Part shown: positions 35,658 to 54,612 of the stretch, one piece after another
Layout of the letters: each line of letters begins with the position of its first letter
How positions within the stretch are numbered: the first letter of the stretch is position 1
IMG/VR virus record: IMGVR_UViG_3300009164_000071
Span: 1 to 64,000 of that record
Direction: 5' to 3' (one strand)
Length of the DNA stretch: 64,000 nt
Source of the DNA: a virus
Notes under the pieces: model-generated
The model's database searches: none
What the model was told of the DNA's origin: nothing
The model's input: the letters and a program-made list of their open reading frames with translations, nothing else
Translations under genes and position numbers: made by a program

Positions 35658-38600
35658 TTATGACCAATAACCTGCAACAGGTGAATTAGGTGAAATAATC
35701 TGATTAGTTGTACCAGGAATAACCACAGTGTATAGTGGTACAGCTTGTCCTAAAACTCTAACTCCGTTAAGTTGTACGTTCAGCATTATTGGTCCTGTGT
35801 CTTTTATATTTCTAATGTAAACCGGATTTGGTATTCTATACGCTCTAAGTTTTGTAATAACATTTACTACAGTACTTCTAGTTAGAACACGTGCCCCATT
35901 CAACTGTGTATTTAAAGTTTTTGGCCCAAGATCACTAAATCTACGTGCGATAGTAGGAATATGAACTCGATACACTATAGGTTTACGTACAACATTAACA
36001 GGTCCAGCATAAACAGTTGCCGGAATTCCCTGACGATTGTAGAAAGTTTTTGCACCACCGTCATTTAAGCGTTTTACAATAGGTCCTGGATATGGTATTG
36101 TATGCGGTATCATGTTGGCCTGCATGGTTGCAGTGGCAACATTTAGTGTTCTATTAAAAAACACAACATTTGTACTGTTAACTGTTATACCAAGTTTTAG
36201 TGTTGGATTTACTTGTGCTAGCCCTGATACTAATCCTGCAGTTGTTAACTGAAATGTACCAACAGAAACACCGTAAGGAATACTAGGATTAAATCGTGCT
36301 CTAACATTGGTGTCAATTAATACTGATGCACCTATGCCCGAGTAGCCTCTTATTTTAGGATTAACAATAACGCCGGTAGTTGTGGTTATCTGTGTACTAG
36401 TCAGTGAGGTCACAAACGGTGTTAGCGTATTGGTATAATTAATCGTTCCATTTCTAGTTAATATAAAGTTATTAAAGCTAGAGTCTGCAAACTGGCCATT
36501 GTCAGTGGCAGTCAACGTTAGCGGACCGTTTCTAACAGTTAGTAAAAGTTGTGTGCTTGTACCTGTGGTCAACGGTGCAACAGGTGCGTTGGTTGATGCA
36601 GTATAGAAACCAACACCTCTACTGATACGTAGATTTGTTAAAGATCCTGACAGAAATGTACTGGCATCCTGTCCACGCCCAATCCAAATTGCATTATTAC
36701 CGGTTGAATAGTTAACGGCATCCGCGGCAGAATAATATACAACACCGTTGACTAAAATTCTTAAAGTACCGTTAACTTTACTATAAACTACATGATACCA
36801 TGTGTTGATAGCGGGTGTTATTCCACTGGTTGCTCTGTGTGCAGTACCATCGTGTAATGTAAAAGAGTTTGCAGGAGTACCCGCCGCGCCAAATACGCTA
36901 AAGTAAGCAGGTACAGCAGTTGCACTACCACGTAGATCTAAGATAGTTGTCTGTGCAGGTAGTGCAGTAAAGTATGTCCAGAACTCTACAGTCCAATCTT
37001 GTACACCTAGAACCAAATTAGCATTACCGGTGAAGCTGAGGAAGTCTGTAGTTCCGTTAAATTGCAAACTACCAATGTTTAATGTATTGTAAACATAAGG
37101 TGTCGATGTAGACACCCATGTAGGTGTCCCAGCAAATGTTATTGCAGTATTATTAAGGCTGGTATCTCTGTAGGTTGTTGCAGATGTTTCAGTCTGTAAT
37201 AAGAACTGTGTATTAACAATCGGGTATGGTGGTAATGTTGGTATAGCATTAAACAAGTTAGTGGTATACAAAGCAGTACCATTGATAATACGCATACTGG
37301 TTATAAAACCTTGGAATGGACTAGCTAGGTCACGTGAGTCAGCACCAATTCTTGCTGGACCAATTGACGAGAAGTTAACAGCATTAGTTATAGTGATTGG
37401 ATTAGTTAAAATATTAACGCCGTCTACAAATATACGAATATTATTGCTAACATCTCTTGTCACAGCTACATGGCGCCATGTGTTCAACAAATTAGGAACA
37501 ATAACGTTTTGTAGTCCAAAAAGGTATGTAGGAGCTAGATAATATCCAGTTTGCATAACACTAATTGTAGTAGCACCAACATCAATTCTTAGTCCACCTG
37601 GGAAAGCACCTTGACTGTACAATGTACAAGCTGTGCTGGTAGTTAAATAAATCCAAGATTCAAATGTAAACTGTCCTGCTAGTTGCATTGCACCTGGATT
37701 AATAATAGTTAGATAATCAGTGTTGGTAGTAAACGGGTTGTTCTGACTGAATGTAGGTCCGCTAGCTGTGACACCAAATCCTAATGATCTGCTAACAACA
37801 AAACTACTTGTGCTAGAATCTACCAAATATGAAGTTGCAGAGGTGGCATTTAATAAGAATACTGTGCCAGTAGTTGCTAGTGATAGTGGTACCCTAGAAG
37901 GAGTAAACGCTGTTCCGCCTGGATATAATCCGTATCCTTTTAACACACGAATATTGTTAATATAACCCTGGAAGAAGTTTGCGGCAGTATTTCTTGTGTC
38001 ACCGGTATTGCCAATGATAAAGTCACTGCTAACACCGTAATCAGTGGCATCTGTATACGTCACACCAGTTTGAGTACCGTTGATGTACATTCTAGTACTA
38101 CCACTGTTTCTCGAAATAGCAAAATGATACCAGGTACTGCTGGTCAATGCACCAGTTATAATTCTTGGTACACCGCCTACATAATACGCATAGGTGTTGA
38201 CCGCAGTTTCTGACTTAAATGTAGGCTTGAGCTGGCTTGTACCAGCACTACTGGCTCTAAAATCAATGATACCTTGATTAACACCGGATTGAATTAATGG
38301 ATAGAACCAACCTTCGATGGTAAAGTCACCTGTACCAAATCCTAAATTGGTACTAGTTGACACTACAATAGCATCGTTAAGTGCATTGTTGAATAATAAA
38401 CTACCGCCTGCGGCTGGACTAACAGGAATACCACTGAATCTTAAGCTACCGTTAACCAATGGATACACTATAGATGTTGCCGTCGATGTTGTTATGCTAG
38501 ACTGTACTCGAATTGAGTTGTAAACACTTTCGCCAACGCTAAATCTCTCGTAGGTTGTCCTATTGATATTAGGTCTAGCTTCAGTTATAGCAGGTCCTTG

Positions 38601-41600
38601 CCGTAGGCCAAATTGCTTGTTAACATAAGGGTTAACTACCATTGGGAATGTCCAAGGAGTAGCACTATTATTAACACCATTGAGTGTTAAATTATATGTA
38701 GGTCTACTACGATTAGTTTTTATACCATTGGCTGCGCTAGTCACAAATACCGCGGCAGCAATACCATTTCCCTGTGGTCTAGGAGTTATAACAATACTAG
38801 AAGTTGTTATAACTCTAGTTGATGTTGTACCTACAATAAAAGGTGTTGATGTGCTGAAGCTAGGAGTACCAACTTGTCTAACACCTATATCAAATGCTGT
38901 GCTAGTTGCCGTGTTTGTCGGACTAGGTTGTAGCAAGAACTGTGTACTAGTTCCTAGGACAAACGGTGCTAGTGGGACTGATGTATTTGTAGTATACATA
39001 GCAACGCCACCAACAACACGGAAGTTAGTTATATAACCTTGCAAGAATCTTCTAGTATTACCATCTGATTCAGCACCAATAGTCAAAGGCGCTGCCGCAT
39101 AGTTAATAGTATCAAAATAGTTAATACCCTGTTGAACACCATTGACAAATAATCTTGTTATTCCCGAAGCACGAGACACAGCAATGTGTGTCCAAGTGTT
39201 GATGCTAGGAGTGTTTCCTGTGATGACAATTGCACCATTAGCATAGTATTTTAATTTACCAGCATCAGTGTTATCAACGTACAATGAACTAACAGCACCT
39301 GTAGGAACACCACTTCTAAAATCCCATACAAAGGTATTATTATCAGCGGCACCGTTGGCTACTCCGTTAGATGCTAGACGTTGTAGGTATGCCCAAGTTT
39401 CTACAGTAAAGTCTTGTAGACCAAGAGCAAAGTTAGTTGACGTTGTAGTACTTAGATAATCAGTAGTTCCGTTGAGCTGTACACTGCCAAATGTTGATGT
39501 AGTATAAACATACGGTGTTAGTGTAGAAACCCAGGTTGGAGTTCCAGAGAATATAATTGCATTATTACTAGTACTAGAATCTCTAAATGCTGTGGCCTGT
39601 GTTTCGTTGGTCAAATACAGATGCTGTAAAGGAGTAGGAGTGGTCACAGATGTTTGTAGTGTGCCACCACGAGTTATAATCGCTGATCCTGTACTGATAT
39701 CAGTAAATGTATTAAATGGTCCGTTTAAAGTCAACAATACTGTGGCAGTTGTTGCCGTGGTCAGTGGCATACTTGGTACTATAAAATTAGTACCAGTGTA
39801 TAACTGTAATCCTCTTGTTATACGTAGGTTGGAAATTGACCCCCAAGTAAAGTCTGTATAAACTGATCCGTTAAAATATGCACCAATGGCCAACGGAGAT
39901 CCAGCAATGTTTGTTATTGTGACAGCCGGTACAGTGAGTACAAGCGCACCATTAACATAGATTGATACGGTAAGGGCAGTTAAATTGTATACCCATGCAC
40001 AATGGCTCCAAGTATTCAATGGCAGTTGCACACCAGGCGCAACCCAAATAGTACTACCGTTAAAGAATCCAATCCATCCGTTGGTTATATTTAAAAACCC
40101 TTGATAACTGGTACCACCAGAACTACGTTTGGACCACAGTGTATTGTAGTTTGCATAGTTGCCCGAGGGGTTAACCAAACATTCTATGGTCCAGTTCCAT
40201 CCAGCAAGACCTAATGCAAATGAATCTGGCATGGTCAAGTAGCCAGTGGTTCCGTCAAATCTAGCATAACGATTTGGTGGATTGTCTGGTAATAGTGGCG
40301 GTTGTGTGTATGAGAACAATGTCGGGAACAGCGTTGCCCCGTTGATCATACGCAGACCTGTGACATATCCATTAAACGGATTTGCCAGGTCACGTGATTC
40401 AGCACCAATTCTAGATGGTCCAACAGCTGAAAAGTTAGTTGTTATACTTGCCACTGAAGTTGCAGTAGTGCCGTCTACATATAAACGTAATTGATTGCCT
40501 ACATCTCGAGTCACAGCAATATGACGCCAAGTATTTGTTAAATTAGGAACTGGGATACTTTGTAATCCAGGAATATACGTCGGCTGTGTAAAGCCATTTT
40601 GCATGATACTAATACTAGTAGGTGCAACGTCAATTCTTAGGCCTCCTGCAAAGGTACCTTGACTATAAAGTGTTCCACCACCGTTTGGTGGTAGATAGAC
40701 CCAAGCATCAAAACTAAATTGTGCTGTACCGGGTTGTAGCGGACCTGGATAAATTACACTTAGGTAATCTGTAGTGGTTGTAAAAGGATTATAATTACTA
40801 AAAGCAGGACCAGTAGCAATAAGTCCAAACCCTTGAGACCTATTAGTTGTGGTATTAACAGTACTAGAATCATTTAATGCTGTAATTGCAGATCTAGAAC
40901 CTAGCAAATATACAGTACCGGTAGTAGCCGTTGTTAGTGGACGAGTTGATGTATTAAATCCTGCAACGGTATAAAATGAAGTATTTGACAAACGTACATT
41001 GCTAAGATATCCATTGAAGTACAAATTAGTGCCAGCAACACCAGTTTGACCAATGTATAATGTGCCAGATGCTAGCGATGGTAGATTTTTAGCATTGGCT
41101 GTTGCAGATGCAATGCCGTTTATATATAATTTTGCACCGGCTGCAACACCAACTAGTGCCATGTGATACCAAGTTCCTACAACAAGAGTACTAGGTAGTG
41201 TAAATGTTGTATTGAGTGCCGCACCAAACACCACATTAGCGGTTGTAGAAGATATTTCTACAGTCCATCTATTAGTTGCATCTTGATATAAGGCTATTGC
41301 ACAACTGGCAGCGGCCACTGAATTTAAATTAAACCAAAATTCAACTGTGTAATTAGTAGTGGCACCTACATTTAAGTTTGCGCTGTACGGCATTGATAGG
41401 AATTGATTAGTACCATTGAATAATGATGACCCACCGAGTACCATAGTAGAAGGAACTAAAACATTAGGGAATGGTGACAGCCCGGATGCTACTGCAGAAT
41501 TATTGTTTGTAATTGCAAATGCATTTACACTTGCGTCAACAATTGATGATTTCAATTGTGCGGTTAATAGTTGAGTGTCATTAATTGCAGTTAGTGGGGT

Positions 41601-44600
41601 TGTAGGAACTGCAAAATTTGAAGTGTAAACAGCAGTTCCTCTGACAAATCGAACGTTTGATATATATCCCGGGAATGTGAATGTTAAATTACTAATTCTA
41701 ACACTGGTTATAGATCCTAATGATGCAATATTAGATGTTTTACTGTCTACAGCAACACCATTGATATAAAATGTTGCTACTCCATTTACCCTTGAAAATG
41801 CTAAATGTGTCCATGTATTCAATATTGTAGTTGCTGTGTATGATGCATTTTGAAATACTGAATTAAGTACATCTGTTCCGAATACTATTTGAACCCTGTA
41901 ATTGGATCCAGAGTTTCCTATTCTTAATGTTAATTCATTTGTACTATCACTAATCGAGAACAAGTACGCATAATTAGTGGGCGCCGTTGTTAGCCACGCC
42001 CATAATTCGATAGTGAAGTTATCACCTGCTCCAATAGAAAATGCAGAATTATTTGTGGGTACAGTCAAAGATTGGCCTGCGCTAAAAAACACTGAACCAC
42101 CACCAAATGGGTTCGACGTGTCTCCTATTGTTGTACCAACATTGGTTATTGCAAATGCATTTATACTTGCGTCAACAATTGTTGATGTTGACTGCGCAGT
42201 TAATAGACTTGTCCCGCTGATTGCAGTCAGTGGATTTAAAGGTACTGAAAATGCTGAAGTATAGACCGCAGTACCTTTGACAATGCGCAGATTAGAAACA
42301 TATCCTTGGCCATAAATTGCTGGGTTTATACTGGAGTTAAATATTCTATTTGGAGTACCTGATCCAATTGATCCACTAACTGTTGCGAAGGCCTTTAGCA
42401 CTCCATTAGAATATACTCTTAGTGTAGTTCCGCTTCTAACATAGGCAAGGTGTGTCCAGGCATTTGCAGATACATCATTACTAGTACCACTGACTACGTT
42501 GTTTGTTCCGTCATAGACTAAAACTTGTCCAACTGAACCAATATAGAAAAGGTAAGCACTTGAGAAAATAGGTACATACGTTCCGGGATTTAAACTAGTT
42601 AAATAAACCCAAGCTTCTACAGTAAAGTCTCCTGTGCCAAAATCAAATGCAGTATTGTTGGGCACAGTTAAGTATTGACTTGTTCCATTAAACTTTACTG
42701 AACCAGTGGCGATCATAGCTGACACTGCGGAAACAAAAGGAGTTGCCGTGGTTTGTACAACTGTGCCAACATTGGTTATGACATTATTGTTAGCAGAATA
42801 ATCTATTGTGACGCTAGATGTTGACTGGGCAGTTAGTAATTGTGTTGTTCCTAGTGTAGCTGATAATGGAACAACTGGAACATTGGCAGCTGCCCCATAC
42901 AATCCATAGCCTTTCAATATACGGACATTAGTTATATATCCTTGAAAAAAGTTAGCGGCTGTGCTCCTTGTATCTCCTGTATTGCCAATGATGAAGTCAC
43001 TGCTAGCACCATAATCAGTGGCGTCTGCATAAGTCACACCTGTTTGAGCACCATTGATATACATTCTAGTATTACTGCTAACTCTCGAAATAGCAAAATG
43101 ATACCAGGTACTGGTATTCAATGGACCTGTGGTTATTCTTGATACACCTGCTGTATAATATGAATACCAAGATGCAGTAGTATCTGACTTAAATGTAGGT
43201 TTGGTCTGGCTCGCACCTAACCCACTGGTTCTAAAATCAATAATACCTTGATTGACACCAGTTTGCAATAGTGGGTAGAACCAGCCTTCAACCGTAAAGT
43301 CTCCAGTACCAAATCCGTAGTTAGTGCTTGTTGATACTACAACAGCATCATTGCCGGAGTTATTGAATAATAAGCTGCCGCCGTCTGCTGACGGTACCTG
43401 TGTACCGCTGAATCTCAAACTACCACTGACACTAGGATAAACTAGAGATGTCACCGTGTTCGATGCAGTAGTAGTTATCACATAAGGATTGGTATTGACC
43501 ACTACGTTATATTGTACATCTTCATAGACTGTGCGGTTATACTTGCTTTCCCAAGTTGGTATTGGTACTCTAGCAGTTATGCCAGGACTATTTGATTTGG
43601 CTATTAATGGATTAATTACTGGAAATTGAGGTGATAGAGACACTCCGGGTATAGTACTGTTGTTGAACGCACTATTGAAATTATTAACATTCAATAAGAA
43701 ATTGTTTTTGGGTCTACTAGCTGTTTGATTGATAACAACTGTGGCTCCTAGACCACTGACACCTCTAGTTATCTTTGGTGCGGCAATTTGCCCGACACCT
43801 ACATTAACAATTTGTGTGCTAGTAGCTGTGGTATAAGTGTATAGAGGTGTTCTAATATCATAGACTGAAACATTATTATTGGTGATTGTTTGATTGTTTA
43901 CGCTTGAATCTGTTAGAAAAGTAGTTGCACTTGATACATTGAGCAATAATGACGCTGTAAAAATACCCGCAGTGCCCGTAGACAGTGGTGATATTGGTGC
44001 TGTAAAGTTATTGGTGTATTGCGCAAAGCCATTGATTATTCTAAAGTTAGTGACTAATCCAGATAGAAAACTACCACCACCAGCTTGCCCAATATAGTCA
44101 ATGTTAGTTGCACCTGTAGTAGCACCTGTATAAACGTTTACAGAACTTGCAGTTTGTACTCCGTTTCTAAATATACGGAATATGTTGCCTTGGCGTGTTA
44201 TGGCGTAGTGATTCCATCCTACTGGTGGAAGACCAAATCCTAGAGTACCTTCATGCAACAATGCCGCGCCAGTGCTGTACGATCCAAACCACACAGACAT
44301 AGCACCCGCATGGGTTGTATGCTTACCTATGAAGATGTTATTAGCACCAAATGCGCCGTTATAATTTCCATAGACAGCACGAGTAGAGTTAGTTTGTGCA
44401 TCATTAAAGAGGACCCAAAACTCTATAGTAAAGTCGTTGCTTTGTAATGCTGTGAATGCATTAGAAGGTGTAGTAAGAAATTGATTAGTACCGTTAAACG
44501 ATACACTACCACCGATTGGTGCATTTTGCAACAATGTAGTTGTTATAACAGTCCCGGTGGTATACTGAGGTATAGGACCGTTGGTAGCTACAGTTTGAAA

Positions 44601-44717
44601 TCCATATGGATTATAAACAACCCTATTAAATGAGCTATCCCATTTTTGTACCGGTGGCGGTGTTGATACATTAACTACCAGTACAGCGATTGGTTCAAAT
44701 TTAGCTAAGATTGTCAT
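35658..44717 (-). CDS. 3019-residue giant adhesin with eleven LamG-like modules
   Basis: The largest gene in the window. Eleven LamG/concanavalin-like modules are seen as F-T-(V/I/F)-E-x-W strands near residues 92, 472, 697, 902, 1122, 1335, 1509, 1772, 2135, 2352 and 2577. Each has a following WxHxAxxR strand and an (I/L)GxxxD/xxxYxxGxISNxR strand. Three longer super-blocks begin with W-x-S-x-(Y/F)NRxVY-type linkers (near 25, 400 and 2070) and share a Pro/Asn-rich connector. The C-terminal 140 residues are three 43-residue repeats around D-x-G-x-K-T-L-N. LamG modules bind glycans or proteins, so a multivalent receptor-binding fibre is likely. No clear ribosome binding site precedes the ATG. 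Confidence 0.9.
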   Translation of the reverse strand: MTILAKFEPIAVLVVNVSTPPPVQKWDSSFNRVVYNPYGFQTVATNGPIPQYTTGTVITTTLLQNAPIGGSVSFNGTNQFLTTPSNAFTALQSNDFTIEFWVLFNDAQTNSTRAVYGNYNGAFGANNIFIGKHTTHAGAMSVWFGSYSTGAALLHEGTLGFGLPPVGWNHYAITRQGNIFRIFRNGVQTASSVNVYTGATTGATNIDYIGQAGGGSFLSGLVTNFRIINGFAQYTNNFTAPISPLSTGTAGIFTASLLLNVSSATTFLTDSSVNNQTITNNNVSVYDIRTPLYTYTTATSTQIVNVGVGQIAAPKITRGVSGLGATVVINQTASRPKNNFLLNVNNFNSAFNNSTIPGVSLSPQFPVINPLIAKSNSPGITARVPIPTWESKYNRTVYEDVQYNVVVNTNPYVITTTASNTVTSLVYPSVSGSLRFSGTQVPSADGGSLLFNNSGNDAVVVSTSTNYGFGTGDFTVEGWFYPLLQTGVNQGIIDFRTSGLGASQTKPTFKSDTTASWYSYYTAGVSRITTGPLNTSTWYHFAISRVSSNTRMYINGAQTGVTYADATDYGASSDFIIGNTGDTRSTAANFFQGYITNVRILKGYGLYGAAANVPVVPLSATLGTTQLLTAQSTSSVTIDYSANNNVITNVGTVVQTTATPFVSAVSAMIATGSVKFNGTSQYLTVPNNTAFDFGTGDFTVEAWVYLTSLNPGTYVPIFSSAYLFYIGSVGQVLVYDGTNNVVSGTSNDVSANAWTHLAYVRSGTTLRVYSNGVLKAFATVSGSIGSGTPNRIFNSSINPAIYGQGYVSNLRIVKGTAVYTSAFSVPLNPLTAISGTSLLTAQSTSTIVDASINAFAITNVGTTIGDTSNPFGGGSVFFSAGQSLTVPTNNSAFSIGAGDNFTIELWAWLTTAPTNYAYLFSISDSTNELTLRIGNSGSNYRVQIVFGTDVLNSVFQNASYTATTILNTWTHLAFSRVNGVATFYINGVAVDSKTSNIASLGSITSVRISNLTFTFPGYISNVRFVRGTAVYTSNFAVPTTPLTAINDTQLLTAQLKSSIVDASVNAFAITNNNSAVASGLSPFPNVLVPSTMVLGGSSLFNGTNQFLSMPYSANLNVGATTNYTVEFWFNLNSVAAASCAIALYQDATNRWTVEISSTTANVVFGAALNTTFTLPSTLVVGTWYHMALVGVAAGAKLYINGIASATANAKNLPSLASGTLYIGQTGVAGTNLYFNGYLSNVRLSNTSFYTVAGFNTSTRPLTTATTGTVYLLGSRSAITALNDSSTVNTTTNRSQGFGLIATGPAFSNYNPFTTTTDYLSVIYPGPLQPGTAQFSFDAWVYLPPNGGGTLYSQGTFAGGLRIDVAPTSISIMQNGFTQPTYIPGLQSIPVPNLTNTWRHIAVTRDVGNQLRLYVDGTTATSVASITTNFSAVGPSRIGAESRDLANPFNGYVTGLRMINGATLFPTLFSYTQPPLLPDNPPNRYARFDGTTGYLTMPDSFALGLAGWNWTIECLVNPSGNYANYNTLWSKRSSGGTSYQGFLNITNGWIGFFNGSTIWVAPGVQLPLNTWSHCAWVYNLTALTVSIYVNGALVLTVPAVTITNIAGSPLAIGAYFNGSVYTDFTWGSISNLRITRGLQLYTGTNFIVPSMPLTTATTATVLLTLNGPFNTFTDISTGSAIITRGGTLQTSVTTPTPLQHLYLTNETQATAFRDSSTSNNAIIFSGTPTWVSTLTPYVYTTSTFGSVQLNGTTDYLSTTTSTNFALGLQDFTVETWAYLQRLASNGVANGAADNNTFVWDFRSGVPTGAVSSLYVDNTDAGKLKYYANGAIVITGNTPSINTWTHIAVSRASGITRLFVNGVQQGINYFDTINYAAAPLTIGAESDGNTRRFLQGYITNFRVVGGVAMYTTNTSVPLAPFVLGTSTQFLLQPSPTNTATSTAFDIGVRQVGTPSFSTSTPFIVGTTSTRVITTSSIVITPRPQGNGIAAAVFVTSAANGIKTNRSRPTYNLTLNGVNNSATPWTFPMVVNPYVNKQFGLRQGPAITEARPNINRTTYERFSVGESVYNSIRVQSSITTSTATSIVYPLVNGSLRFSGIPVSPAAGGSLLFNNALNDAIVVSTSTNLGFGTGDFTIEGWFYPLIQSGVNQGIIDFRASSAGTSQLKPTFKSETAVNTYAYYVGGVPRIITGALTSSTWYHFAISRNSGSTRMYINGTQTGVTYTDATDYGVSSDFIIGNTGDTRNTAANFFQGYINNIRVLKGYGLYPGGTAFTPSRVPLSLATTGTVFLLNATSATSYLVDSSTSSFVVSRSLGFGVTASGPTFSQNNPFTTNTDYLTIINPGAMQLAGQFTFESWIYLTTSTACTLYSQGAFPGGLRIDVGATTISVMQTGYYLAPTYLFGLQNVIVPNLLNTWRHVAVTRDVSNNIRIFVDGVNILTNPITITNAVNFSSIGPARIGADSRDLASPFQGFITSMRIINGTALYTTNLFNAIPTLPPYPIVNTQFLLQTETSATTYRDTSLNNTAITFAGTPTWVSTSTPYVYNTLNIGSLQFNGTTDFLSFTGNANLVLGVQDWTVEFWTYFTALPAQTTILDLRGSATAVPAYFSVFGAAGTPANSFTLHDGTAHRATSGITPAINTWYHVVYSKVNGTLRILVNGVVYYSAADAVNYSTGNNAIWIGRGQDASTFLSGSLTNLRISRGVGFYTASTNAPVAPLTTGTSTQLLLTVRNGPLTLTATDNGQFADSSFNNFILTRNGTINYTNTLTPFVTSLTSTQITTTTGVIVNPKIRGYSGIGASVLIDTNVRARFNPSIPYGVSVGTFQLTTAGLVSGLAQVNPTLKLGITVNSTNVVFFNRTLNVATATMQANMIPHTIPYPGPIVKRLNDGGAKTFYNRQGIPATVYAGPVNVVRKPIVYRVHIPTIARRFSDLGPKTLNTQLNGARVLTRSTVVNVITKLRAYRIPNPVYIRNIKDTGPIMLNVQLNGVRVLGQAVPLYTVVIPGTTNQIISPNSPVAGYWS
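37921..38470 (-). repeat. Internal duplication, copy 1 (LamG 9)
   Basis: This segment codes LamG module 9 of the 3019-aa protein. It closely matches the segment at 42895-43445, which codes module 2, at both DNA and protein level. Shared protein stretches include NQGIIDFR, TWYHFAISR, SSDFIIGNTGDTR and AANFFQGYI. The two lie about 5 kb apart in the same gene. Confidence 0.8.
42895..43445 (-). repeat. Internal duplication, copy 2 (LamG 2)
   Basis: Paired with 37921-38470 (see there). Differences are mostly at third codon positions and in the loops, so the copies are recent or kept similar by gene conversion. Confidence 0.8.
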
Positions 44718-44732
44718 GCTATATAATCAGAG

Positions 44733-46616
44733 TTAGATTGCGGCTCCTACAAGAATATTATTAATACCACCGCCTGAAATGGTTAGGTTAATGTTCGTAC
44801 TTGTAGTTGCGTTGGTTGTATAAGTTTGATTAACTGTTCCATTGTCAGTGAATACCATGCTATTACCTTGTATGGTTAGATATACAGTGGCTGTGATTGC
44901 ATCACCTGCATAATTATAGGCAAACAAACTAGCTGTGGTTAGGATGTTTGTTCCTGTATATAAAAGATTCTGCGTTGGCATGACCACACTGACCTGTGAC
45001 GGTAGGTCAAGTGTTAACAGGTGTACTGTATAATTACCTAGTTCACGCCCTTGCATCCATAAACGTCCTCGTGCATCTAAGCCACAGTAAGACATTTCAT
45101 AGGGATATACTGAGCTAATATACCAACCACTGGTTGTTGAGAATCTCATAAAATTAGTTTTAGTATAGGTAGGAACTACCATCATATCGCCTATAGCGTT
45201 GAGTGGTAGCCAATCACGTGGCATGTTATAGTTATCTTGGAAAGTAAACCTACTGTGATAAGTTAGTGTACTATCAGTGGCAGTATTGATAGTAAATGTC
45301 AACATGGTACGCTGTGTACTGGTGTTCCAACGTGTTGGAGCACTACCTTGATGATTAGATTTGTCGCTTAACCAGAAAGTTATGTACCACAGGCCGTTGG
45401 GCACCGGTTGGAATTGCCATGGTTGAATATGCCATGCGTCTTGACTACTCTGTGCTACTGCCGATCCGCCGGTAATACCATACTTACCTGCATAGTTGAA
45501 CAATGCGTAAGCACCCACGCTACTGGTACTACCATAGACCATGGTACAGGTACTTGTGGTTATTGGTGGTGGAATTGATGCACCAGTGGCTGTGATGTTC
45601 AATGGATCCCAACGGAATACCACAGGTGCTAGATTTCCCTGAAAGTCAAAGTGACTGGAATAGAACACACGTTTGTTGCTGGCATCATATCTAATATTGC
45701 TGGGACGCGAATGTAGATTCCATTCTAGTGAAGCTACAAACGCATTAATATTAGTTGATGTAGTCATGGTTGAATTAGTACCAGCCCAACTAATTCTAGT
45801 TAACGTATAAGGATTACCGGCGGTGTTATCTTTCATGGTACACCAAACAGTGGCACTGGTTGCAGGCTCTACTCCAACAAAGAATGTTGTTTGCTGAGTT
45901 TGATCCATGGCAGACAAGAAACTAATAGGTCCATTAGTTGCATCATCCCAACGATTTATCAAAGTGACTTCGTCGTGTGGTGCATTGTTAGTAGCCAAGC
46001 CCCATAGACGCTTCCAACGACGTTGCCCGTCAAGTCCCGTGGCAGTCATATCTTGGAAAGTGTCTTCCCAGAAATAATTTTGAGGAAGTGCCGCGCCACT
46101 ATTACCGACAGATCCTCTGGTTGTATTGTAGATATAACCCTGTGTTATATCCGGACCAAATATGCCAAATTGTCCAAAATGCTGTCCAGCAGTTCCACCG
46201 ATATTAACACCATCATTTGAAAACGGCCAAGTCATCCATGCTCTTTGCGTACTGGTGTTATACCAAGAAACTTTGGCAGGAAAGTTAACCGGATCTAAAC
46301 TGCGATGGAATGAAGAATAGGCATCTCTATCTGCGTTTGTGCCTGTATCACCTGCGGCTCCGGAACACTGAATCGAATTCCCTATAAGTCTTAGACTTCC
46401 ATAATATGTTCCCGACCCGTTCCAAGGACTTGGACTCAACGGATTAATCAATAATGAAAAATCTTGATAGTGAAAATATGAGTTAAACTGTGGGGTTAGG
46501 AATGTGGCATCGTGAGCCAGACTAGAAAGATACAGTCTGTTTGTTGCTGTATTTGGATCTTCGATCAAGGGATATATCGCCTGCCCTAAATTTCCGCTGA
46601 TGTGTACTAAAGCCAT
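44733..46616 (-). CDS. Tandem adhesin-like paralogue 3 of 3
   Basis: A 627-residue protein of a family that I do not recognise. It has the class-D N-terminus MALVHISG, then PLIEDPN, NRLYLSSLAHDATFL and FHYQ. Shared internal signatures are SNIRYDASNKRVFYSSHFD, CTMVYG, WQFQP, TRW-(N)TSTQRTMLTF, MPRDWLPLN and YPYEMSYCGLDARGRLW. The C-terminal 90 residues (LLYTGTNILTTASLF onward, GNSMVFTDNGT, GGGINNILVGA) form an Ig-like domain. Strand pattern and repeated WD-like turns suggest a beta-propeller or similar host-binding head, but that is inference. AGGAGAA precedes the ATG. Compared with paralogue 2 it carries small insertions in the first 250 residues. Confidence 0.75.
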   Translation of the reverse strand: MALVHISGNLGQAIYPLIEDPNTATNRLYLSSLAHDATFLTPQFNSYFHYQDFSLLINPLSPSPWNGSGTYYGSLRLIGNSIQCSGAAGDTGTNADRDAYSSFHRSLDPVNFPAKVSWYNTSTQRAWMTWPFSNDGVNIGGTAGQHFGQFGIFGPDITQGYIYNTTRGSVGNSGAALPQNYFWEDTFQDMTATGLDGQRRWKRLWGLATNNAPHDEVTLINRWDDATNGPISFLSAMDQTQQTTFFVGVEPATSATVWCTMKDNTAGNPYTLTRISWAGTNSTMTTSTNINAFVASLEWNLHSRPSNIRYDASNKRVFYSSHFDFQGNLAPVVFRWDPLNITATGASIPPPITTSTCTMVYGSTSSVGAYALFNYAGKYGITGGSAVAQSSQDAWHIQPWQFQPVPNGLWYITFWLSDKSNHQGSAPTRWNTSTQRTMLTFTINTATDSTLTYHSRFTFQDNYNMPRDWLPLNAIGDMMVVPTYTKTNFMRFSTTSGWYISSVYPYEMSYCGLDARGRLWMQGRELGNYTVHLLTLDLPSQVSVVMPTQNLLYTGTNILTTASLFAYNYAGDAITATVYLTIQGNSMVFTDNGTVNQTYTTNATTSTNINLTISGGGINNILVGAAI

Positions 46617-46655
46617 TTTATTCTCCTAAATTTCCTGTTAAATTTTTCATTAGAT
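46603..46655. repeat. 53-base identical junction repeat, copy 1
   Basis: A 53-base sequence identical to 48439-48491. It covers the last codons and stop region of the upstream paralogue, the intergenic spacer with AGGAG, and the first codons of the next paralogue. It marks the junction of the tandem duplication. Confidence 0.9.
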
Positions 46656-48452
46656 GTTTGCTCCAACTACAATATTGTTGACACCACCACCGAATATAGT
46701 CAAGTTAACTGTGGTCCCTGTTAAGGTGTTAGTTGTTGTGGTCAAACTAGTTGTTCCGTTATCAGTGAACAACATGCTATTACCGTTGATGCTCAAGTTT
46801 GTGACCATGCTGGCCAGTGAGCCTTGTGCATCGAAGACAGATACTGTGGCACTGGTCAAGATGTTTGTGCCAGTGTATGTATAAGTTGAGCTGGACATAA
46901 CCACACTGACTGTGTATGGGACCGTTGGTGTTATTAAGTGTATGGCAAAGTTTCCAATTTCAGTGCTTTGTCCCCATAACCGATTCTGTGAATCTAAGCC
47001 CAGTGTTCGCATTTCATAGGGATAGCTGTTGGTCAATCCCCAACCCAGTGTTGGGTTAAATGTAAAAAAGTTAACCTTACTGTAGACTGGCACAGCCATT
47101 TGTGTTCCTTCTGCGTTGATTGGTAAGAATTCTCTTGGAATTTCAAAAACGCTGGGGAATGTGTAAGAACTGTGATAGGTCAAAAATGCAGTTGATGTTG
47201 TATCAGTTGTTGTATTGATACTGTAGGTCATCATGGTACGACGTAGTGGGTTATCCCATCGCGTTGGCGCATTTCCGCCATAGCCTGCAATTTTGTCAAT
47301 GGGCCAGAATGTTAGATACCATGTTGTAGTATTTGCCGGGCGGAACTGCCATGGATGCATACGCCATGAATCAGCGGCAATGGTTGTTTGGAATGCAGTA
47401 TTCTGATACAGTTGACTGTAGTTAGTAAAAGTCCCCACTGCATAGACCATGGTGCAGGTTGTTGCTGTGAATAGGCCGTCTGTTCTAGTTGGATCCCAGG
47501 TAAATCTCTGTGGCTTCAATTCGTTCATACCGTCAAAGTGACTGGAGTAGAACACCCGAGCGGTAGCACTGTCATATCGAATATTACTAGGAGTGGTATG
47601 ACGATAGGTATAGCCTCCACCGCTAGCACCTACACTACGATCACCTGTACCAAATATTGTAGTTTTTACAGGAGTTATAGGTGCAGGAGTTGCTGAATAT
47701 CTATAAATGAAGAAAGGTTCGCCGGTTTGAGTTGGTCTTGATTCAACCATATAAACATTATTAGCAACATCTGCTCCTATAAACCAAGAGTTAAGTGCTA
47801 CATCGGCAGCAATACCAGTAAAACCAATATTTGTTGGATTGTCGTAGTTGGTCACACCAATGACGTTGTTGTAGTATGAATTGGCTTGTTGCACTCCCCA
47901 AAGTCTTTGATTAACTGCATCTTCAAAGTATAAAGTGGTTGGCGCATAAACGTTATTATTACTAATATACAATGCGCCTGTTGTTATGTCTGAGGGATAT
48001 ATTAGATAATTACCTGAACCTTGGGCAGTGGTCCCAACATCTTGCCAGGGGTAGGTCATAATAACTCTGTTGTTGACAGTGTACCAGTTTCTTTTTGCAG
48101 GGTAGTTAACGGGATCTAAACTTGAATGAAATGCCGCCCAATTATCTCGTTGGTTGTTATCAACGCTGGTTTCACTTGTTGTATAACAATTAACAGTGGC
48201 CTTGATCAATGACATACTTCCGAAACCATTGGCCGGGACAACTGGCAAATTACCAAATGTGTAGGCACTTTGGAACGGGGTGTTGCCTGTATGATAGTGG
48301 AACTGGCTACCAAAAATTGGATTTAGGAAAGTGCCGTCATGCCCTTGTGCTGTAAAAAACAAACGATTTTGAGTGGGATTGGGATCCTCGATCAACGGTG
48401 TTATATTGGCGTAGACCCGAGCCACTGTTCCACTTATATGTACTAAAGCCAT
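46650..48452 (-). CDS. Tandem adhesin-like paralogue 2 of 3
   Basis: A 600-residue paralogue with the class-D start MALVHISG, PLIEDPNPTQNRLFF, GHDGTFL and FHY. It shares SNIRYDSATARVFYSSHFDG, CTMVY, HPWQFRPANTTTWYLTFW, TRWDNPLRRTMMTYSINT, PREFLPIN, YPYEM and the C-terminal Ig-like region with GNSMLFTDNGT and GGGVNNIVVGANI. It differs from its neighbours mainly in residues 80-280, where the receptor-facing loops would be expected. The 53-base junction on both sides is identical, so duplication is recent or converted. The ATG has AGGAGAA upstream. Function unknown, probably a fibre tip protein. Confidence 0.75.
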   Translation of the reverse strand: MALVHISGTVARVYANITPLIEDPNPTQNRLFFTAQGHDGTFLNPIFGSQFHYHTGNTPFQSAYTFGNLPVVPANGFGSMSLIKATVNCYTTSETSVDNNQRDNWAAFHSSLDPVNYPAKRNWYTVNNRVIMTYPWQDVGTTAQGSGNYLIYPSDITTGALYISNNNVYAPTTLYFEDAVNQRLWGVQQANSYYNNVIGVTNYDNPTNIGFTGIAADVALNSWFIGADVANNVYMVESRPTQTGEPFFIYRYSATPAPITPVKTTIFGTGDRSVGASGGGYTYRHTTPSNIRYDSATARVFYSSHFDGMNELKPQRFTWDPTRTDGLFTATTCTMVYAVGTFTNYSQLYQNTAFQTTIAADSWRMHPWQFRPANTTTWYLTFWPIDKIAGYGGNAPTRWDNPLRRTMMTYSINTTTDTTSTAFLTYHSSYTFPSVFEIPREFLPINAEGTQMAVPVYSKVNFFTFNPTLGWGLTNSYPYEMRTLGLDSQNRLWGQSTEIGNFAIHLITPTVPYTVSVVMSSSTYTYTGTNILTSATVSVFDAQGSLASMVTNLSINGNSMLFTDNGTTSLTTTTNTLTGTTVNLTIFGGGVNNIVVGANI

Positions 48453-48491
48453 TTTATTCTCCTAAATTTCCTGTTAAATTTTTCATTAGAT
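48439..48491. repeat. 53-base identical junction repeat, copy 2
   Basis: The second copy of the 53-base junction sequence (see 46603-46655). The corresponding junction at 50.28 kb, before the first paralogue, has a different spacer, so the copied unit spans one gene plus its 3' spacer. Confidence 0.9.
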
Positions 48492-50291
48492 ATTTGCTCC
48501 TACCGCAATATTATTCATTCCCGCACCGGTTATGGTTAATTTAACCACTGCGCCCGATACCGCATTAGTAGTGGTAGTATAAGTTTTTGTACCACTATCT
48601 GTAAAAATCATGCTATTACCCACCACAGTCAATGTTAGTGTTGATGCAACTAACACCCCACTTGAATTGAACGCAGTTATGTATGCATTCGTATTTATGT
48701 TAGTTCCAATGTAGGTATAACTAGCACTGTCATATCTTATGTTAATTGTCATCGGAGTTGATGTTGTTAACATGTGTACTGAGTAATAACCCGAGCCGTC
48801 TTTGCCAACTCCCCATACTCTGTTCTGATTATCCAATCCCACTGATACCATTTCATAGGGATAAACATTAGTCAGTGTCCATCCCTGTGTGGCATCAAAC
48901 TGATAGAAGTTAGTCTGTCCTGTTGCAGGCGCTACAACCTGTGTGCCGTCACTGTTTATTGGTAAAAAGTCACGTGGCATGTTGGTTGTGGTATTAAATG
49001 TAAAGACGCTATGAAAAGTCAGTGTACTATCTGTAGCAGTATTAATAGAATACGTCATCATAGTTCTTGTAGCAGGTGTACCCCAACGTGTTAATGCATT
49101 GGCGTTATTATGTCCCTTGTCTGTTAACCAATAAGTTATGTACCAAGTTGTGGTATTAGCAGGACGGAATTGCCATGGTTTAATATGCCAAGCACCACCT
49201 GTGTTTGCGCCGCCAGTATTTGGATACTTGGCTGCTCTAGATGTATAGCCATTTGCGGCGGTCACACCACTGTAGACCATGGTGCAGGTTGTTGCTGTAA
49301 AGCAGGTACTGGTATTAAGATCAGTAGGGTTCCACTGATATCGTATGGGCAATAATTCGTTGCTACCGTTAAAGTGACTTGAATAAAATACACGAGAAGT
49401 TGCACTGTCGTATCTAACATTGCTAGGGCGGCAATAATTAAAAGCCACGCTGTTCCATCCGTAGCCTAGCAGGCCTGTGGCCAACGGCGCACCTAGTGTA
49501 GATACATAAGAGATAACACCCGCAGGACTGATACGATGAATAGCATAAGGATCACCTACTGTGGCATCTTTATTTCTAACCCACCATGCATTATTACCTG
49601 TGTCAACTCCGAGGAAGAATGTTGTACCGTCATTGTTGTTTGACAGATGTGTGACGTTAGCGGCCAATACGTTATCATAGTTAGTCACATAACTGACATT
49701 GTCCATCTGTCCATTAGATGTCTGTAAGCCCCATAATCTAACGTTGGCCACATCTTCATAGAACATGAGATTTGGAAAGTTATTATTACTCTGTGCTGTA
49801 GAAGTAAAAATAGCACCTGTTGAACTAGTTATGTCTGAGGTATAGATCATGTAGGTATTGAAAGGACCAGTAGCATTATACAAATCCTGTTGTGGATAAG
49901 TTATAATAGCTCTGTTGTTAACTGTGTACCATGAACGCTTGGCAGGATAGTTAACAGGATCTAAACTACGATGGTATCCACCCCATCCATCTTTATCAGC
50001 ATTTGAGCTAGAGTCAGCCGCACGAGGTGTCCAAATTGCAGCCTTGTTAGTTAATAAATTTCCACCAAATAGAGTTGTACCTGCACCTTGTGGATTTCCA
50101 TAACCTGTTGACGATAATTGATTAATGTTAATTAAAGATTGATAGTGAAAAGTTTGGTTGAATTGAGGAGTTAGATAATTAGCTTCATGTGCAACTCCGC
50201 TGAGAAAAATTCTGTTAGCAGAAGGATTTGGGTCCTCAATCATAGGGGTGCATTGCAATCCTAAAGTTGAACTAATATGTACTAAAGCCAT
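48486..50291 (-). CDS. Tandem adhesin-like paralogue 1 of 3
   Basis: A 601-residue paralogue and the first in transcription order. The class-D start is MALVHISSTLG, followed by PMIEDPNPSANRIFLSGVAH and FHYQ. Shared signatures are SNVRYDSATSRVFYSSHFNG, CTMVYSG, HIKPWQFRPANTTTWYITYW, TRWGTPATRTMMTYSINT, MPRDFLPIN and YPYEMVSVGLDNQNRVW. It ends with the Ig-like domain (YTYIGTNINTNAYITAFN, GNSMIFTDSGT, GAGMNNIAVGANI). AAGGAAT precedes the ATG. It follows the 1439-aa fibre with one base between the ORFs, so the three paralogues belong to the same operon and probably form part of one fibre complex. Confidence 0.75.
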   Translation of the reverse strand: MALVHISSTLGLQCTPMIEDPNPSANRIFLSGVAHEANYLTPQFNQTFHYQSLININQLSSTGYGNPQGAGTTLFGGNLLTNKAAIWTPRAADSSSNADKDGWGGYHRSLDPVNYPAKRSWYTVNNRAIITYPQQDLYNATGPFNTYMIYTSDITSSTGAIFTSTAQSNNNFPNLMFYEDVANVRLWGLQTSNGQMDNVSYVTNYDNVLAANVTHLSNNNDGTTFFLGVDTGNNAWWVRNKDATVGDPYAIHRISPAGVISYVSTLGAPLATGLLGYGWNSVAFNYCRPSNVRYDSATSRVFYSSHFNGSNELLPIRYQWNPTDLNTSTCFTATTCTMVYSGVTAANGYTSRAAKYPNTGGANTGGAWHIKPWQFRPANTTTWYITYWLTDKGHNNANALTRWGTPATRTMMTYSINTATDSTLTFHSVFTFNTTTNMPRDFLPINSDGTQVVAPATGQTNFYQFDATQGWTLTNVYPYEMVSVGLDNQNRVWGVGKDGSGYYSVHMLTTSTPMTINIRYDSASYTYIGTNINTNAYITAFNSSGVLVASTLTLTVVGNSMIFTDSGTKTYTTTTNAVSGAVVKLTITGAGMNNIAVGANI

Positions 50292-50292
50292 T

Positions 50293-53200
50293 TTACAAAT
50301 TCCTTGTGTATAAAAAAGTCACCGCTAAATTTGATCCAGCTAATGCAGTACCAACTGTTCCTACATTAACTCCAAAATAATCCCCTGTGGCGGCAGTTAT
50401 AGGAACAGTATAAGCTGTAGAAGTTAACTGCATATTAGGTACAGTTAATGATGCAACTTGTATTCCATTCTTGGTTATTGAAAGAATGATCCCTGATCCT
50501 ATTGGTGCTATATTTACCCGTGCTACAATGTTGAAGATACTGATGTTGGTTGCCGCATACCAAAACATTGCGGCATTGGCTATACTTAATTGACCTGGTA
50601 TAGAATATTGTTTTTCAAATATTGTACCTGTGCTAGATGTAGCTGTACCACTGCCACCACTACCTGCACCCCCGTATACTGATCCAGCTCCAATAGCACT
50701 GCTGTTATCAAACCAAAAATTACTATTTCCGTCGTAGGTATAACGTAATAATACATCGTTGGTAGTATCATACCACCAATCACCTACTGTAGGATTTGTT
50801 GGTGCAGTGGGGCTAGACGTAGATCTAACACCGCCACCAACAATATTTCCACCTACATTTAAGTTTCCATTAATGCCTGCACCGCCAGTGACAAGTAATG
50901 CACCACTGTTAGTACCTGTTGACTGCGTAGGATTTGTAAACCGTGCTACTCCAGGAATCTCACCAAATCGTAGGCCGGCTCCAATAAACACATCGCCGCC
51001 GATACCAACACCGCCTCTAACTATCAATGCACCCGTTGTGGTAGACACCGATGTGGCGCTAGATGTAATATTCAACGTATTTGGTATTAGGCCGCCTGAG
51101 AACGTAGCTGAAGTATTAACCACACTGCCATTTGAATAAATGACGCCGGCAACATGCAGATCTCGACCAAATGAACCACCACCAACAACGCTTAATGCAC
51201 CTGTTGTGGTTGAAATAGCATTCGAAGAACTGGTTATAACTAAAGTATTAAATGTACCAGTGGTTGCGCTAAAGTCAATAATGCTGGCACTGGCAGTTAG
51301 GTTAATTATTCCGCCAATATTAATGTTTCCGCCGAGCCAAATATCTCCGCCAAAAGACGCACCACCTGCAACAATTAAAGCGCCAGTGGTAGTGCTTGTG
51401 CTGTTTGTTGTGGTATTAATATACAATGGTGATGTTATTGTCCCGCCATTAAATCCGCCAACGCCACCCCCGCCTCCACCACTACCAGCACCACCAGTAA
51501 ATAATACACCGTTCTGATAGATGTTTCCGTTGAAATTAATGTCGCCGCCAACGTTAATGCCGCCATTGGGTACAGTTATAGCAGTTGATGCCGAAGATAG
51601 CGCAACTAAATTAATAAATGTCCCAGTGCTACTACCAAATTTTTGACCGCCTACATATACTGTGCCGCCTACATACAAATCTTGAGCAACACCAACTCCG
51701 CCCGATACAATTAATGCACCGCTGGTAGTACCTGTTGAATTTGTTGTGTTGCTTGTGCGTAGTGTGCTAGTTGTTATAACACCAAACCCGCCACCTGCAG
51801 AAAGATTTATATCTGCTGAACTTGATATAACAGCAGATCCTGTTCCAACATTTATCGTTCCGCCAACAGTTAAGTCTTTACCTACACCAATACCGCCTAC
51901 AACTGTCAATGCTCCTGTATTGGTGCTAGTGCTGGTTTCCGGTCCAGTTATTTTAATATTGTTAAATGTACCTGTACTAGCAGTAAAATCAGTAAAACTA
52001 CTGCTACCTATTAGATTAAGTGTTCCAGCAAGATTAATATTTCCGCCAACAAACAGATCTTTACCAAACGCGCCGCCACCTGGAATGACCAATGCTCCTG
52101 TTGTAGAAGTAGTCGGTAATGAATTAAGTGTACTGGTTGACTTAATAAGTGTTATTGTTGCTGTGTTTGCACTAAGGCTAGTAAAAGTGACAGCGTTAGT
52201 TTGGAAAAAAGTTCCTACAAGATTAAGATTCCCACCAACATACAAATCTCCACCAATACCTGTACCGCCGGTGACCTGCAAGGCACCCATTGCATAGGTA
52301 TTAGCTGATCCAGCTGAGCTGTTGGTTAACTGTACTATCTGATTAGTTGATCCCGCAAATGTTCCGGTTGGACCTTGAGGTCCTTGAGCGCCAGTATTAC
52401 CTTGACTTCCTTGAGGTCCTTGTGGACCAGTTGCGCCAGTTGGTCCTTGAGGACCTGTTGCACCTAATGTTCCTTGTACTCCTGAAGCACCACTTGGTCC
52501 AGTTGGTCCTGTGACTCCGGCCCCGCTAGGTCCTTGAGGTCCGGTGACTCCGACTCCGCTAGGTCCTTGAGGTCCGGCATCTCCTTGACCTCCCTGCGGT
52601 CCTTGTGGTCCTTGGGCGCCTTGTGGTCCTTGAGCACCTGTGGCACCTGTGACACCAGATGGCCCTAAATTAGCATAGGCCGCAATAGTAGCTGTTGTAA
52701 TAATAACAGATCCACCAATTGTAGAAGTTTGCTCAATATTAACAGACCCACCAAACCCTGCACCACCTGCAACAATCAATGCGCCTGTGGTAGTCGATGT
52801 TGACTCAGCATTGTTTGAAGTTTGAATAACATCATCAGTTTGTACCAATGTAGTAGTGACCGTGGTATATTGAATTGTTAACTTCTGAGCAACAATTTCT
52901 CCGCCGACGTACAAGTTTCCGCCAATACCAACCCCACCGGCAACTACTAACGCACCTGTGATTGTTGAACTTGACTCAGTGTTAGCCACAACACTGACTT
53001 TTCCAGTGTTATCAATAGTAAGGCTAGATGTAGCACTTGCTCCTATTGTACCAATATCGAATGACGAACCATTAACAGTAAATGGTGCGTAGGCATTACC
53101 GGCACTGTTAAGACTGGTTATGTTATTGTTTCCAGCAGTACTTCCTACTGTGAATGCCCACTGGTCTCCTGCGCCAGAACCTTTCATCTGCAGGGCGTAT

Positions 53201-54612
53201 TGATTTCCTGAACCTATTTCTGTTATAACCAGTGATGAGGCATTTAATGAGCCACCGGCATATAAGCTGCCGCCAATTCCTACTCCACCTGCAACTACCA
53301 AACTACCAGTCGATGTGCTGTTTGAATTTGTTGTATTGCTTAAACGTAGTGTACTAGTTGACAATATTCCATAGCCGCCACCTGCAGAAAAGTTTATATC
53401 TCCCGTACTTGCTAGTGTAGATACTCCTGGGCCTTGTGCTGAAATTGTACCGCCAACATTAAGGTCGCCGCCAACACCAACTCCGCCTAGTACAGTTAAC
53501 GCACCACTGGTAGTTCCAGTTGATAGTGTAGCATTATTAATAAAAATTGTAGAAGTAGTTGTGCCTGTTATTGCACCAGATGGACCTGCTGGACCTGTAG
53601 TACCAATAGATCCCTGTGCGCCAACTCCAGTTGGTCCAGTAGGACCTGTATAACCTTGAGCACCTTGCGGTCCTGTGACACCCTGTGGTCCTTCATCGCC
53701 TTGAACTCCTTGTGGTCCCTGAGGTCCTGTGACACCCTGAGGTCCTGTGACGCCTTGTACTCCCTGTGGTCCTTGAGGTCCAGTGACGCCTTGTGGTCCG
53801 CTAGGACCCTGTGGTCCAGTGACTCCTTGAACTCCTTGAGGGCCTTGTGGTCCTTTGGGGCCGCTTGGTCCACTTGGACCTAAATAAGCAAATTGTGCAA
53901 TTGTTGCTGTTGTTATTACAACAGCACCCGCAATAGTTGATGTTTGACCTACATTGATTGCGCCACCAATACCAACGCCGCCTGTGACTACTAACGCACC
54001 TGCTGTTGTGCTAGTTGAAGATGTGGTATTTGTTATTGATACAGCATTATCAGTGGTTGCGCCTCTATTTGTTATACTCTGTAATGTACTTGTATTCCAA
54101 ATAGTTATTGCGCCTGTACTGGTGTTAACAGCAGTATCAGTTCCTGCAAATATAGTAGTTGTTTGATTTATTAAATCTTGTAAATATTGACTAACTGTAG
54201 CAGTTGTTAATATTAAAGCACCGCCAACATATGACGATGTACCAACATACAATGCGCCACCAATGCCGACGCCTCCTGCAACTTTTAATGCACCTGTAAT
54301 TGTAGAAGTTGAGGAACCGGTACTGTTAACAAGTATTGTTTGAAACGTGCCGGTGGTTGCAGTAAAGTCAGTAAAACTAGTACTAGCAGTTAGATTTAGT
54401 GCTCCAACAAGGTTAATGTTTCCACCAACCCAAAGATCTCCGCCAATACCGGATCCGCCTTTGACAATTAAGGCGCCGGTAGCGGTCGAAGTGCTGGCAT
54501 CGGCAGTATTAATTGATACACTGCCTGGTACAGTAAAGTTGCCGTTAGCATCGATGATCGCATTATCGCCAACGCTGAGGCCATTCTTTACTTCAAAATT
54601 CTTGTTTGACAT
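50293..54612 (-). CDS. 1439-residue collagen/GG-repeat tail fibre
   Basis: A long fibre with the class-B N-terminus [14 protein letters not shown]. It has 15 clear copies of the GALxVxGGVGIGGxLYVGG repeat and two collagen-like Gly-X-Y stalks (residues of about 244-344 and 649-751) rich in GPQGPQ and GPSG. Near the end a W-type module, [20 protein letters not shown], is followed by WFDNSSA. The C-terminal 110 residues are a beta domain resembling that of the 281-aa fibre. Collagen triplets and repeated beta turns imply a trimeric rod, and the last domain is the likely receptor contact. GGGGAA precedes the ATG, and a CTAAATA late element lies about 28 bases upstream. Confidence 0.85.

Follow-up and report, generated by a model that had tools for sequence, protein, structure and literature searches.

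Three anciently diverged tandem copies of a putative virion adhesin gene joined by identical 53-bp junctions in the tail-fibre cluster of a predicted jumbo myophage

Jumbo phages are carriers of many adhesins that look unrelated to one another. Homologues of the C-terminal region of the protein family described here are encoded by jumbo Bacillus phages (AR9 gp192, PBS1 gp83, BpSp gp253 and Goe21 02090, PHROG 22549; family HMM E 3e-21 to 8e-18). AR9 gp192, which is related via BpSp gp253, is annotated as a virion protein and encoded soon after the tail spike and endolysin genes; BpSp gp253 is absent from the published list of BpSp virion proteins (PMC4870245). The jumbo phage phiKp24 (PMC9700779) and the Ackermannviridae, with their branched tail-spike complexes (PMC11414711), are reported to have several adhesins present at once on one virion.

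The stretch of DNA analysed, referred to below as the window, comprises 64,000 of the 65,289 bases of one IMG/VR record (IMGVR_UViG_3300009164_000071), a single metagenome assembly. The terminase of this record is 54% identical to those of the jumbo Pseudomonas phages PA5oct and MIJ3, and 49-52% identical to those of Sinorhizobium phage Phosso and Agrobacterium phage Atu_ph07; the source virus is evidently a jumbo myophage related to PA5oct and Atu_ph07. Family scans located a structural cluster in the window (tail sheath, tail tube, head-tail adaptor, T4 gp15-type sheath stabiliser, terminase and several collagen-like fibres). On its minus strand, a collagen-like fibre gene that ends 1 nt before g3 is followed by the three tandem genes g3, g2 and g1 and by the gene of a protein with LamG-like lectin domains (Table 1). 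The three genes are thus found in a tail-fibre cluster beside fibre and lectin genes, the setting of a phage virion adhesin or receptor-binding protein. The LamG open reading frame contains an internal 270-nt repeat (37923-38192 and 42897-43166, 80% identity), and a Nol-like carbamoyltransferase gene (PHROG 1601, Pfam Carbam_trans) is present in the phage structural region at 18116-19957.

Table 1. Coordinates of the tandem genes, their junctions and related features in the window.
Feature	Position	Strand	Basis
3019-aa protein with 11 LamG-like (Laminin_G_3) lectin domains, downstream of g1	35658..44717	-	Pfam E 3e-153, 11 stretches
g1, third in transcription order, 627 aa, intact	44733..46616	-	ORF; 43-45% identity to the other two copies; signature alignment with L004/L005
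53-bp junction repeat, g2/g1 copy: last codon and stop (ATCTAA), then a 33-nt spacer carrying the ribosome site AGGAG, then ATGGCTTTAGTACA	46603..46655	-	unique pair in the window
33-nt non-coding spacer, g2/g1 junction	46617..46649	-	sequence
g2, middle copy, 600 aa, intact, flanked by the two identical 53-bp repeats	46650..48452	-	ORF; homology to g1/g3
53-bp junction repeat, g3/g2 copy, identical to the g2/g1 copy	48439..48491	-	unique pair in the window
33-nt spacer, g3/g2 junction, identical to the g2/g1 spacer	48453..48485	-	sequence
g3, first in transcription order, 601 aa, intact	48486..50291	-	ORF; homology to g1/g2
18-nt start-region match TAAAATGGCTTTAGTACA at g3, without spacer	50278..50295	-	sequence comparison
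Collagen-like phage tail fibre, 1439 aa, upstream of g3	50293..54612	-	PHROG tail fiber matches E 1.5e-41; Pfam Collagen
Fourth, distant homologue, 713 aa, Cys-rich (3.4% Cys)	21744..23885	-	phrog_20698 match at 21786-22106, E 1e-7; family HMM E 1.8e-6 to 3e-8; composition

The products of g1, g2 and g3 are full-length homologues (43-48% amino acid identity), and ORF and alignment analyses bore out a preliminary description of this DNA, which had reported three tandem homologous genes of 600-627 residues sharing the signatures RVFYSSHF, CTMVY, WQFxP, TRW and YPYEM. A start codon, a ribosome site and an open frame are present in every copy, and the three form one string of genes. The N-terminal half of the fourth homologue in the window contains CC and CxC motifs. 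No significant internal repeat was detected by hhalign self-comparison, and an alignment of eight family members was too diverse for a pattern scan. A metagenome search for the family, as suggested in the preliminary description, recovered single-copy relatives in five IMG/VR contigs: L004 and four contigs (L005, L006, L007 and L008) that represent the same phage in four samples and are nearly identical over 21 kb. No family member was found in 48 contigs of tail-sheath relatives, which are fragments and hence uninformative, and tblastn against phages with g3, the 713-aa homologue and the C-terminus of g2 as queries yielded nothing useful, as did scans of genome contigs. Searches of IMG/VR returned no close relative of the three-gene array, so recent exchange is not directly visible.

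None of the three proteins has a match in Pfam. A match to phrog_20698, confined to the C-terminus, was obtained for g3 (E 5e-11, profile positions 410-554 of 561) and, weakly, for g2 (E 1.2e-8), and not for g1. Against the PHROG 22549 profile, g1-g3 fell short of E 0.1, and the C-terminal 140-170 residues of the L004 and L005 proteins gave matches (E 2e-17 and 3e-16); by BLAST, the latter two proteins are 27-31% identical to the BpSp protein over 121-140 residues. For g1-g3, neither PHROG 22549 nor PHROG 20698 gave an HMM match over most of the protein. Neither PHROG has an assigned function, and AR9 gp192 is annotated as a virion protein; the family, which had been called unrecognised, was nearly so. 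Two AlphaFold models were of low confidence (mean pLDDT 43 and 48, the latter for g2; pTM 0.48 and 0.56). Foldseek matches of both weak models in the PDB were mostly beta-propellers (TM 0.1-0.5), the lectin PHL among them, with the phi11 host-recognition device among the matches of the first model; their best viral matches included an uncultured phage protein (TM 0.52), two proteins of Ralstonia phage RP12 (A0A1L7N0W6 and A0A1L7N0Y1), both strong structural matches, and protein S5WKN9 of phage PaBG. The models offer a hint of a beta-propeller plus Ig-like fold. The three proteins are probable virion adhesins of this predicted architecture, and an adhesin role is plausible; we infer their location on the virion, their binding role and their co-expression, as well as recent exchange, from the features described here.

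The coding sequences have diverged throughout. Where residues are conserved, 36-46% of fourfold sites agree between the copies, and identical residues share the same codon in 118, 120 and 123 cases, whereas codon usage by itself would predict 99, 92 and 87. Codon identity is as low at the ends as elsewhere (10/20, 9/22 and 11/23 in the first 40 residues; 20/44, 16/39 and 24/46 in the last 91), and synonymous sites are near saturation over the full length of all three genes, with no region outstanding. Trees of four segments, with L004 and L005 as the outgroup, showed no significant difference in topology and did not settle the branching order of g1, g2 and g3. Because synonymous sites are near saturation everywhere and the trees do not conflict, the coding sequences are old, and no conversion from one copy to another is detectable in them; the junction alone has a young appearance. 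The near-saturated synonymous codons at both ends led to rejection of the gene conversion that the preliminary description had proposed for the ends of the genes, and mosaic copies were rejected because no segment has raised synonymous identity and no significant topology conflict was seen.

At the amino acid level, identity among the copies is 20-48% at residues 80-280 and 43-66% at residues 281-601. The copies had been said to differ at about residues 80-280; these residues are indeed less conserved, but as part of a gradient rather than in sharp contrast to the remainder. Divergence along the genes, uniformity of which had been named as the outcome that would count against conversion and diversification, is uniform at synonymous sites and graded at the amino acid level. 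N-terminal and C-terminal halves differ significantly in the g3/g2 (p=0.008) and g2/g1 (p=0.0006) comparisons; the g3/g1 comparison shows no significant difference (p=0.25). Since the N-terminal half is likewise less conserved between the single-copy proteins of L004 and L005 (p=0.017), weaker conservation of this half appears to be a property of the protein and not of the array, and a special diversification of the middle finds no support. Comparison of the window genes with L005 gave 18-22% identity at residues 80-280 and 38-55% after residue 281.

The two junctions between the genes, 1836 bases apart, are identical in 53 of 53 bases including the spacer, exactly as had been noted. Each consists of the last codon and stop of one gene, a 33-nt spacer, a ribosome site and the first 14 coding bases of the next gene, and past both edges of the block identity falls immediately to coding-level divergence, synonymous positions included. 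With up to 3 mismatches allowed, a 37-base core of the junction occurs 2 times in the whole window (shuffle mean 0.00). Among exact direct repeats in the window, the junction is the second longest, after one of 56 bp in the neighbouring fibre genes. The first 14 coding bases and the 4 bases preceding them are identical in g1, g2 and g3; because the start of g3 has these 18 junction bases and no spacer, part of the junction identity, that of the start region, reflects ordinary constraint. For comparison, the 60-base gene-start regions of L004 and L005, the divergence of which is comparable to or below that of the copies (family proteins about 76% identical), are 72-82% identical with exact runs of no more than 21 nt. 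The junction is therefore more similar than expected from common ancestry alone, and recent recombination or homogenisation there is the likeliest cause, in partial support of the preliminary description, since identity in 53 of 53 bases far exceeds the conservation of the L004 and L005 gene starts. Recombination between the 53-bp repeats in silico deleted 1836 bp and left g3 and g1 unchanged.

The 11-mer GGAAATTTAGG is limited to the two spacers (46625-46635 and 48461-48471) and codons 8-11 of g1 (46585-46595), and the small frame of the spacer (MKNLTGNLGE) resembles the N-terminal ISGNLGQ of g1, as if the spacer derived from a gene start. The 56-bp exact repeat (54062-54117 and 55454-55509), common to two adjacent collagen-like fibre genes, sits within 170-nt copies that are 87-89% alike and is another sign of recent segment exchange, in this case between adjoining fibre genes.

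The account that we favour, with some reservation, is that of an anciently duplicated multi-adhesin array in a late structural (tail-fibre) cluster, the identical junctions of which reflect recent recombination or homogenisation. One virion adhesin gene, encoding a predicted beta-propeller with an Ig-like domain after it, would have been duplicated twice in tandem long ago, after the lineage split from its single-copy relatives L004 and L005. Divergence of the copies would then have gone on almost to saturation of synonymous sites, with retention of the fold and the conserved C-terminal half. The three proteins are probably all produced from a single late transcript and displayed side by side on the particle as binding proteins, which would provide several specificities at once with no switching. 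The 53-bp junctions could act as short homology blocks, and a crossover between them would cause the loss or gain of exactly one gene and one spacer (1,836 bp), leaving the neighbouring frames intact. The simplest explanation of their perfect identity is that recombination or homogenisation took place at the junction recently, such as unequal crossing-over or acquisition of an entire unit from a related array. The anatomy of the locus permits exchange of units, and the identity of the blocks suggests that it has occurred. It is doubtful that the junctions are working crossover sites at which whole adhesin genes are acquired, lost and exchanged in the phage population, as in a modular multi-adhesin magazine whose homology blocks are in frame and run from stop to start.

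Selection could instead have kept the junction identical as a translation signal (a ribosome site and a start region, perhaps together with a 10-codon minicistron for coupling) with no recombination. The start regions are evidently constrained, being alike in all three genes including the spacer-less g3, and the L004 and L005 gene starts keep runs of up to 16-21 nt; the spacer, besides its AGGAG, can be read as a 10-codon frame ATGAAAAATTTAACAGGAAATTTAGGAGAATAA (ATG...TAA) overlapping the upstream stop (TAATG). Yet g3 manages without the spacer, which precedes no other gene in the window, spacers elsewhere being unrelated, and constraint on all 33 bases would be unusual beside the 72-82% identity of the L004 and L005 starts. 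Consideration of the spacer as an RNA element led to its rejection, with no structure above shuffles and no match in Rfam, and a promoter or terminator at the junctions was rejected likewise, as sigma-70-like matches were no more frequent than in shuffles and no terminator was detected there. An explanation by translation alone is on the whole somewhat unlikely. Capture of g2 or another copy, as an already divergent paralogue recently acquired from a related phage by a single crossover of a circle or unit at the spacer, in place of duplication within this lineage, is close to the favoured model of an old array with recombining junctions. It would account both for near-saturated coding divergence and for identical junctions at the two ends of g2, and the unsettled branching order is compatible with it; but the viral contigs searched contained no donor, and the GC and GC3 of g2 are only slightly above those of g3 and g1. 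Capture is on the whole unlikely.

A diversity-generating system, in which conversion keeps the ends alike, the middle diversifies and recombination between copies alters the receptor, is very unlikely. The identical junctions, the somewhat lower conservation of the N-terminal half in two of the three pairs and a single 26-nt exact word common to the g3 and g2 coding sequences might be taken to favour it, but synonymous sites are near saturation at ends and middle alike, the segment trees lack significant conflict, and the single-copy relatives show the same gradient of conservation. Among the family-scanned genes of the window (a subset of the ORFs of a 65-kb record), neither a reverse transcriptase nor an invertase was detected. 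The related reading of the genes as switch cassettes, made in the preliminary description, did not survive: since all three copies have a start, a ribosome site and an open frame, with no silent or partial donor among them, a silent-cassette switch is rejected. That short reads joined variants at the repeated 53-mer is conceivable in a virus contig from a metagenome with a repeat of about k-mer size, but such an assembly artefact is extremely improbable, as the copies are far too different for strain variants (43-48% amino acid identity) and each is intact, with spacing and frames kept.

A gene family without a named function is now linked to virion proteins of the AR9/PBS1 type. An old tandem set retains identical stop-to-start junctions, a design that would allow the loss, gain or swap of a whole copy without breaking the others; because the loss of one unit leaves a predictable junction, gain and loss of units are directly testable from metagenome reads.

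Like the window genes, the full-length homologues in L004 and L005-L008 (31-36% identical) lie in fibre-gene clusters, but they occur as one copy each with other neighbours, and their N-terminal halves are less conserved without any array. The homologues of the jumbo Bacillus phages are of similar length (644-653 aa) and likewise belong to a late structural cluster, but they are single-copy, their N-terminal part lies outside the family HMM match, and they adjoin a tail spike and an endolysin, whereas the window genes adjoin collagen fibres and a LamG protein. Pseudomonas phage PaBG also encodes a row of proteins of about 590-635 aa (00264-00266 and 00268; L104:2720-10447). Of these, 264-266 lie in tandem, are paralogous to one another (21-23% identity, E 3e-19 to 4e-6) and have no function assigned in databases; 268 has a C-terminal match to PHROG 22549. 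PaBG 264-266 are far more divergent than g1-g3 and do not match the family HMM; they are evidently another example of tandemly encoded proteins that are related to one another and alike in length. The likeness to phiKp24 and the Ackermannviridae is one of working principle only, theirs being tail fibres or tail spikes in branched complexes. The array is thus of an ordinary kind for a phage, made of a rare kind of gene that is ordinary for phage tails, and it is the junction that is unusual.
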